From a virus, in IMG/VR virus record IMGVR_UViG_3300034072_001149, positions 62,001 to 126,000 of that record: a DNA stretch of 64,000 bases; one strand, given 5' to 3'. A model generated the notes under the pieces. It searched no databases, was not told the origin of the DNA, and worked only from the letters and a program-made list of their open reading frames with translations. A program made the position numbers and the translations under genes. Every line of letters begins with the position of its first letter. The first letter of the stretch is position 1. Shown here piece by piece: positions 31,644-32,105 of this stretch.

Positions 31644-32105
31644 TTAGGACTTATTCTCAAGGGCGTCAAGGCGCTCCATGATTTCCCGAAGTAGACGAAC
31701 CTGCTCGGCAGACTGTTGCTTTAGCAGTTCCTGTTCGTTGTGGGTAAAGGCATTGCTGTCAACAATCAGATGAGCGGACATTTTGGCCGTAATGATAGGC
31801 ACGACCAAGAACACGCAAATGAACATAAACGCGCCACCGACCAACTTACTGATCAGATGGGTTGGATAGAGGTCACCATAACCCACTGTGGTCGCCGTCA
31901 CAGTAGCCCACCAGAAGCTATTGGTTAGGTCTTTGTCCTCTACAATGCTGAAGGTAACTGCCGCGATAGTCATCGTGATGATAAACAGCGAGACCATAGG
32001 CAAAACCTTATTGGCCATCTTCTGCATCATATTCATTTGGACCATAGGTTGAGTAATAGCGATATCGTAAATCTCGTTACCAACCTTTTCAATTTCCTTA
32101 CGCAT
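31644..32105 (-). CDS. Potassium channel, two-TM type
   Basis: 153 residues. TM1 is residues about 34-54. A pore helix with W-W-A-T-V-T-A leads into the selectivity filter T-T-V-G-Y-G-D (72-78), which is the exact K+ filter. TM2 is residues about 87-110, and residues 120-150 form a coiled-coil tail that could tetramerise. The layout matches KcsA/Kcv-like channels. It presumably opens K+ flux in the host inner membrane during infection, possibly altering membrane potential or blocking superinfection. The N-terminal 30 residues are amphipathic. An AAGGGA site precedes the ATG. Such channels are known in algal viruses and are rarely described in phages. Confidence 0.88.

Follow-up and report, generated by a model that had tools for sequence, protein, structure and literature searches.

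A predicted two-helix potassium channel gene kept at a conserved locus in a group of T4-like jumbo phages

The window analysed here, a stretch of 64,000 nucleotides that forms part of a 159-kb IMG/VR record, carries on its minus strand an intact gene whose product is, on sequence and structure-model evidence, very probably a potassium channel of the two-transmembrane (2TM) class. The gene is under purifying selection and is found at the same place in five related phage contigs. It adds one more member to a family already known; K+ channels of phages and of T4-like phages have both already been published.

Sequence and predicted fold of the channel

An earlier note on this DNA had read the open reading frame as a phage-encoded K+ channel in which the exact filter T-T-V-G-Y-G-D sits between two hydrophobic segments, and this reading held up in the Pfam, PHROGs, PDB and AlphaFold/Foldseek comparisons and in the conservation of the filter. 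The hydrophobicity of the 153-residue product places the two segments at about residues 34-56 and 84-116, on either side of T72-T-V-G-Y-G-D78 (Table 1). Across all six frames of the window a filter of the TxGYGD type was matched only once, in this frame, and TVGYGD appeared in no frame of any of 200 shuffled windows, which rules out a chance origin. The protein matched Pfam Ion_trans_2 (PF07885) with E=7.5e-12 and 45.4 bits, about twice the curated cut-off of 22.5 bits, and the PHROGs profile phrog_14690 with E=9.2e-30. The top sequence matches in the PDB were all K+ channels, with Kv2.1 as the best and KvLm and KcsA matched too.

The AlphaFold model, for which an alignment of 27 family members served as input, reached a mean pLDDT of 85 and consists of helices at residues 34-56, 60-71, 84-114 and 122-152. 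Foldseek returned the KvLm pore (4h33) as the top PDB match of this model (target TM 0.77, 85 columns, 2.0 A, probability 1.00, E 3.4e-3); that no PDB match had an E value below 0.001 is attributed to the short helical module. The top viral match was a phage protein described as 'potassium channel domain' (E=7e-7). What defines the 2TM K+ channel pore class, a TxG(Y/F)GD filter and a pore helix between two transmembrane helices, is present in both the sequence and the model. The tail had been described as a coiled coil in the earlier note. The model bears out a single predicted helix in this region, residues 122-152, with a block pLDDT of 86-96, and a coiled coil is plausible given a heptad pattern that is moderate (62% hydrophobic in the best a/d register).

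Table 1. Features of the channel locus in the window (positions in nucleotides of the window; residues refer to the channel protein)
Feature	Position	Strand	Details	Basis
Small class II aminoacyl-tRNA-synthetase-like protein	30715..31503	minus	262 aa; GlyRS-like core, stand-alone; flanks syntenic block
tRNA, CUA anticodon	31556..31632	minus	amber-suppressor type; 11 bp beyond the 3' end of the channel gene	ARAGORN 'Pyl'
Predicted 2TM K+ channel gene	31644..32105	minus	153 aa; ATG start, TAA stop	Pfam, PHROGs, PDB, AlphaFold, Foldseek
Codons of post-TM2 motif F-T-H-N-E-Q-E	31728..31748	minus	residues 120-126	sequence and alignment
Codons of selectivity filter TTVGYGD	31872..31892	minus	residues 72-78	sequence
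Channel layout, N-terminal half	residues 1-78		N-terminal stretch 1-33; TM1 34-56; pore helix 60-71; filter TTVGYGD 72-78
Channel layout, C-terminal half	residues 84-152		TM2 84-114 with invariant P103; predicted capping-box motif F120-T-H-N-E124-Q125-E126; predicted cytosolic helix 122-152
Multi-span membrane protein	32177..32782	minus	201 aa; no known family	three hydrophobic segments
Cysteinyl-tRNA synthetase (CysRS)	32767..34116	minus	flanks syntenic block	Pfam

Genomic setting and conservation

A search for homologues in related phages, which the earlier note had proposed as a check, yielded five relatives with the gene at the same locus, on contigs of 436, 462, 465, 277 and 417 kb with channels of 93, 67, 59, 53 and 32% identity, respectively. 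The T4-type capsid family Gp23 was found in the record to which the window belongs, as well as in 6/6 relatives searched, including the cultured Sinorhizobium phage Phosso, and the phages therefore constitute a jumbo group that is T4-like in the broad sense, in agreement with the earlier assignment. The gene order CysRS, membrane protein, channel and tRNA-CUA is the same in the window and in 5/5 relatives, and the gap between channel and tRNA is 11 bp in all six. At the loci read beyond the tRNA-CUA, the next genes are those for the mini class II synthetase and for a phosphatase. Phosso possesses the same block without the channel, with 30 bp from the membrane gene to the tRNA, and no match to the channel profile was obtained across its whole 469-kb genome. 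Because this cultured relative lacks it, the channel gene is dispensable, and we conclude that it is a conserved yet dispensable accessory gene of the block. It was also absent from the five other jumbo phages searched (322-636 kb).

The record is a metagenomic fragment, and a gene on such a fragment could stem from host contamination or an assembly artefact. The gene recurs at this site on five further phage contigs (277-465 kb) that carry Gp23 genes, and homologues exist in cultured phages. Conserved synteny thus refutes this explanation, the probability of which we consider practically nil.

The neighbours of the window channel are translation and RNA genes and not membrane-stress genes. 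A cluster of such genes extends over positions 28876-38284 on the minus strand (peptidyl-tRNA hydrolase 2, the mini class II synthetase, CysRS, an RNA ligase and the tRNA), with a ClpP-like protease nearby (37664-38284), and a MoxR-like AAA ATPase adjoins a DUF2201/VWA metallopeptidase-like protein at 39526-42280 (minus strand). The adjacent gene for a multi-span membrane protein, to which the earlier note had drawn attention, is indeed present. Its product is kept in 5/5 channel-bearing relatives (49-77% identity within the group), has a distant relative in Phosso (23% identity), which has no channel, and has further relatives in channel-less Rhizobium phages (Kleczkowskaviridae; L183), where they lie inside a tellurite-resistance-type cluster (TelA-like, VWA, DUF475, TerD). 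Its structure model was poor (mean pLDDT 51.7). We rejected the idea that this protein is an obligate partner of the channel, as it persists in phages without one; it is not specific to the channel.

The tRNA-CUA is kept at the same site in the five relatives and in Phosso. Its loop CTCTAAA is invariant, the anticodon stem varies on both sides and the base following the acceptor stem is G in 6/6 aligned sequences. Jumbo phages of Caulobacter, Brevundimonas and Xanthomonas encode the mini class II synthetase as well, there without an adjoining CUA tRNA. Six of the 81 called open reading frames end on TAG, and when the extensions of the TAG-ended frames examined were read by eye, none gave convincing evidence of in-frame read-through. 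Amber-suppressor tRNAs with no known target have been reported for the jumbo phage XacN1 (PMC5852040). This pairing of a conserved amber-suppressor tRNA with a neighbouring mini class II synthetase merits separate attention, and whether the enzyme charges the tRNA is a worthwhile question.

Substitutions between the window channel and its relative L018 are mostly silent (pS 0.71, pN 0.05), and omega amounts to about 0.02-0.17 in the pairs for which it is computable; with dS near saturation these values are rough but their direction is clear. The channel is under purifying selection. Residues E56, GYGD, P103, E124 and Q125 are invariant in 27/27 aligned phage homologues, all of which match the phrog_14690 profile, and T121 and E126 occur in at least 90% of them. 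Replacement of filter residues in relatives, named in the earlier note as a finding that would speak against a channel, was thus not seen. All 27 members also share a motif after TM2 that was defined in this analysis as aromatic-x-[H/D/N]-x-E-Q (an E-Q after an aromatic residue and T/S-H/D/N). It occurs in 0/52 six-helix prophage channels and, among the best 80 bacterial matches listed, in at least five (three Micromonosporaceae, Caenimonas and Isoptericola). We have seen no earlier description of this subfamily motif. In a tree computed from a short alignment, with many weak forks, all motif-bearing proteins form one group (97/85) and the bacterial members are nested among the phage members, a pattern that makes gene exchange between phages and bacteria probable.

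Relatives of the channel were present in 31 phage records in a search of phages, namely phages of Aeromonas, Pseudomonas, Streptomyces, Mycobacterium, Acinetobacter and, in a few cases, Lactobacillus; a second query gave 40. The relatives are of two kinds, a two-helix kind with a short tail, as in the window, and a longer, six-helix Kv-like kind of about 230-260 aa in smaller phages of Firmicutes. The cultured carriers of the motif-type channel are all large phages with genomes of 97-235 kb, and ten of the aligned IMG/VR members come from contigs longer than 200 kb. Motif-type channels are distributed patchily over unrelated phages and have differing neighbours. The homologue in Pseudomonas phage phiPsa397 (L016, 2460-2820) is 74% identical to that of contig L037; the annotation does not name it as a channel and calls a shorter open reading frame at its place. 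In Aeromonas phage LAh_8 (L007, 2501-4634) the genes after the K+ channel encode DUF1190 and glutathionylspermidine-synthase-like ATP-grasp proteins, and an R2K ATP-grasp gene is situated near the channel in the window (34537-35370); a link between K+ channels and ATP-grasp ligases is possible.

Comparison with known channels

According to the earlier note, a copy in a T4-like phage would be a new setting. This part did not survive comparison with the literature. Greiner et al. (2018; PMC6163359) list K+ channel genes in phages Myrna, Phabba, ME3, ventosus and BillNye and in nine vibriophages, of which at least two, nt-1 and phi-pp2, are members of the Straboviridae, the T4 family. The authors term any function of the phage channels speculative and describe yeast tests that were done on algal virus genes. 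In the open-access papers searched we found neither a functional test nor a measured conductance of any phage K+ channel.

The cultured counterparts of the window channel belong to PHROG 14690, which comprises the channels of Mycobacterium phages Myrna and Phabba, Acinetobacter phage ME3, Pseudomonas phage ventosus, Streptomyces phage BillNye and Aeromonas phage LAh_8. Common to all are two helices, the GYGD filter, the TM2 proline and a tail motif of the T-H-x-E-Q-E type. Identity of the window channel to the cultured members is 26-34%, and with 153 aa, compared with mostly 111-140 aa, it is extended at the N-terminus and has a longer helix at the C-terminus, both features common to its own clade (L018-L021 and L024). 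The database label of this family, 'cAMP-dependent Kef-type K+ transporter', was rejected for the window protein, in which Pfam shows no Kef antiporter body and no cyclic-nucleotide-binding domain, the 153-aa pore module standing alone.

PHROG 15627 from vibriophages KVP40, nt-1 and phi-pp2 likewise represents a 2TM K+ channel encoded by T4-like phages but differs in its GFGD filter, its length of about 228 aa, its C-terminal part and its rIIAB neighbourhood. The window channel, with GYGD, matched the profile of this family only marginally (E=0.001, 19.9 bits) and lies outside it. In the T4-like vibriophages CZ01, nt-1 and phi-pp2 (L184-L186) the channel gene is located directly downstream of rIIA-rIIB with one small open reading frame between, and KVP40 has the same GFGD-type channel frame, unannotated, at 86246-86926. 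The vibriophage rIIA-rIIB proteins are annotated as protectors of membrane integrity against prophage-induced early lysis. For yet another phage K+ channel, the neighbouring genes are TerD stress genes and one for a predicted ion exchanger.

KcsA from Streptomyces lividans and the KvLm pore module (4h33) have the same pore fold and filter as the window channel, and from WW to the YP after the filter 14/17 residues are identical to KcsA. E71 of KcsA corresponds to V69, so that the E71-D80 inactivation pair of KcsA would be missing. KcsA also has E-Q-E after TM2 (E118-Q119-E120) and a C-terminal helical bundle, and E118 and E120 are part of its pH sensor and gate (PMC7337057). Equating the phage E-Q-E with this sensor was tried and rejected: pairwise BLASTP aligns the two only with gaps and the profile comparison covers the pore alone. 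The distance from the filter to E-Q-E is eight residues longer in the window channel than in KcsA, and together with the pore-only profile alignment this leaves the apparent likeness of the tails as no more than a lead.

Kcv-type channels of algal viruses are likewise virus-encoded minimal K+ pores; they are unrelated in detail to the window channel and for the most part shorter. According to Greiner et al. (2018; PMC6163359), the virus particle contains packaged Kcv. Structural matches of the window channel to algal virus channels were weak (EsV-1, E=8e-3), and it falls outside the Kcv type, being encoded by a Gp23-type tailed phage and having phage proteins as its nearest relatives. The particles differ as well, since that of the Kcv type has a membrane that tailed phages do not possess.

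Possible roles in the infected cell

Tailed phage particles have no membrane, and the channel would therefore have to act post-infection, in the host membrane. By homology, four subunits would assemble in the host inner membrane with their TTVGYGD filters lining a K+-selective pore. Less firmly, the T-H-x-E-Q-E segment just inside the membrane may cap the cytosolic helix by way of a T-x-x-E capping box, and this helix could well form a four-helix bundle that acts as a gate or sensor. Such a channel would raise the K+ permeability of the host and pull its membrane potential towards the K+ equilibrium value. The protein probably conducts K+ in vivo, and that it is a functional K+ channel at work in the host membrane is likely as well. 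Any specific role is a good deal more doubtful. The likeliest use, which we propose tentatively and by analogy, would be to keep or bring the infected cell at a given membrane potential and K+ content during perturbation of its envelope, whether this comes from the phage or from defences that depolarise the membrane. Two context clues would fit such membrane upkeep, namely the rIIA-rIIB linkage in vibriophages and the TerD/ion-exchanger linkage elsewhere; they are analogies because neither context adjoins the window channel. For the window's phage an rIIAB linkage was rejected, as rIIB was not detected in its group and the linkage belongs to another subfamily.

Alternatively, K+ moving in or out could tune the turgor and the ionic strength of a cell that fills with a genome of more than 400 kb and with particles. 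The large genomes of the cultured carriers and the ten IMG/VR members on long contigs agree with this osmotic job, but Phosso and the five other jumbo phages do without a channel, so that size alone does not demand one, and osmotic gating is not readable from the sequence; we regard it as rather unlikely. The rII region is known for resisting lambda Rex exclusion, and a channel in that region of vibriophages, along with the patchy spread and differing neighbours that are typical of conflict genes, might point to exclusion or counter-defence, in which an altered host potential would block DNA delivery by rivals or defeat a depolarising abortive-infection protein. However, no defence or exclusion genes adjoin the window channel and its group yielded no rIIB, which makes this use improbable here. 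The gene could also be a passenger, or a regulator that does not conduct alone and for example mixes with a host channel. Phosso manages with 30 bp at the corresponding site; yet a non-conducting passenger should lose its filter, whereas every member retains both an intact filter and the TM2 proline, with strong selection against replacement changes, and we give this explanation little credence.

A more far-reaching reading, which we consider rather doubtful, is that a distinct subfamily of K+ channels is common to large virulent phages and that its conserved cytosolic T-H-x-E-Q-E segment would be a gate that senses an infection signal (pH, a nucleotide or a divalent ion), so that the phage would switch the host potential at a chosen moment against depolarising immunity or rivals. 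If true, a phage would thereby exert a regulated electrical control over its host, of which we found no demonstration. The clade is well suited for testing, its channel gene being compact, intact, conserved in place in at least six phages and naturally absent from the cultured phage Phosso, and the shared tail motif offers a specific point for mutation. A positive functional result would show whether phages govern the electrical state of the cells they infect.
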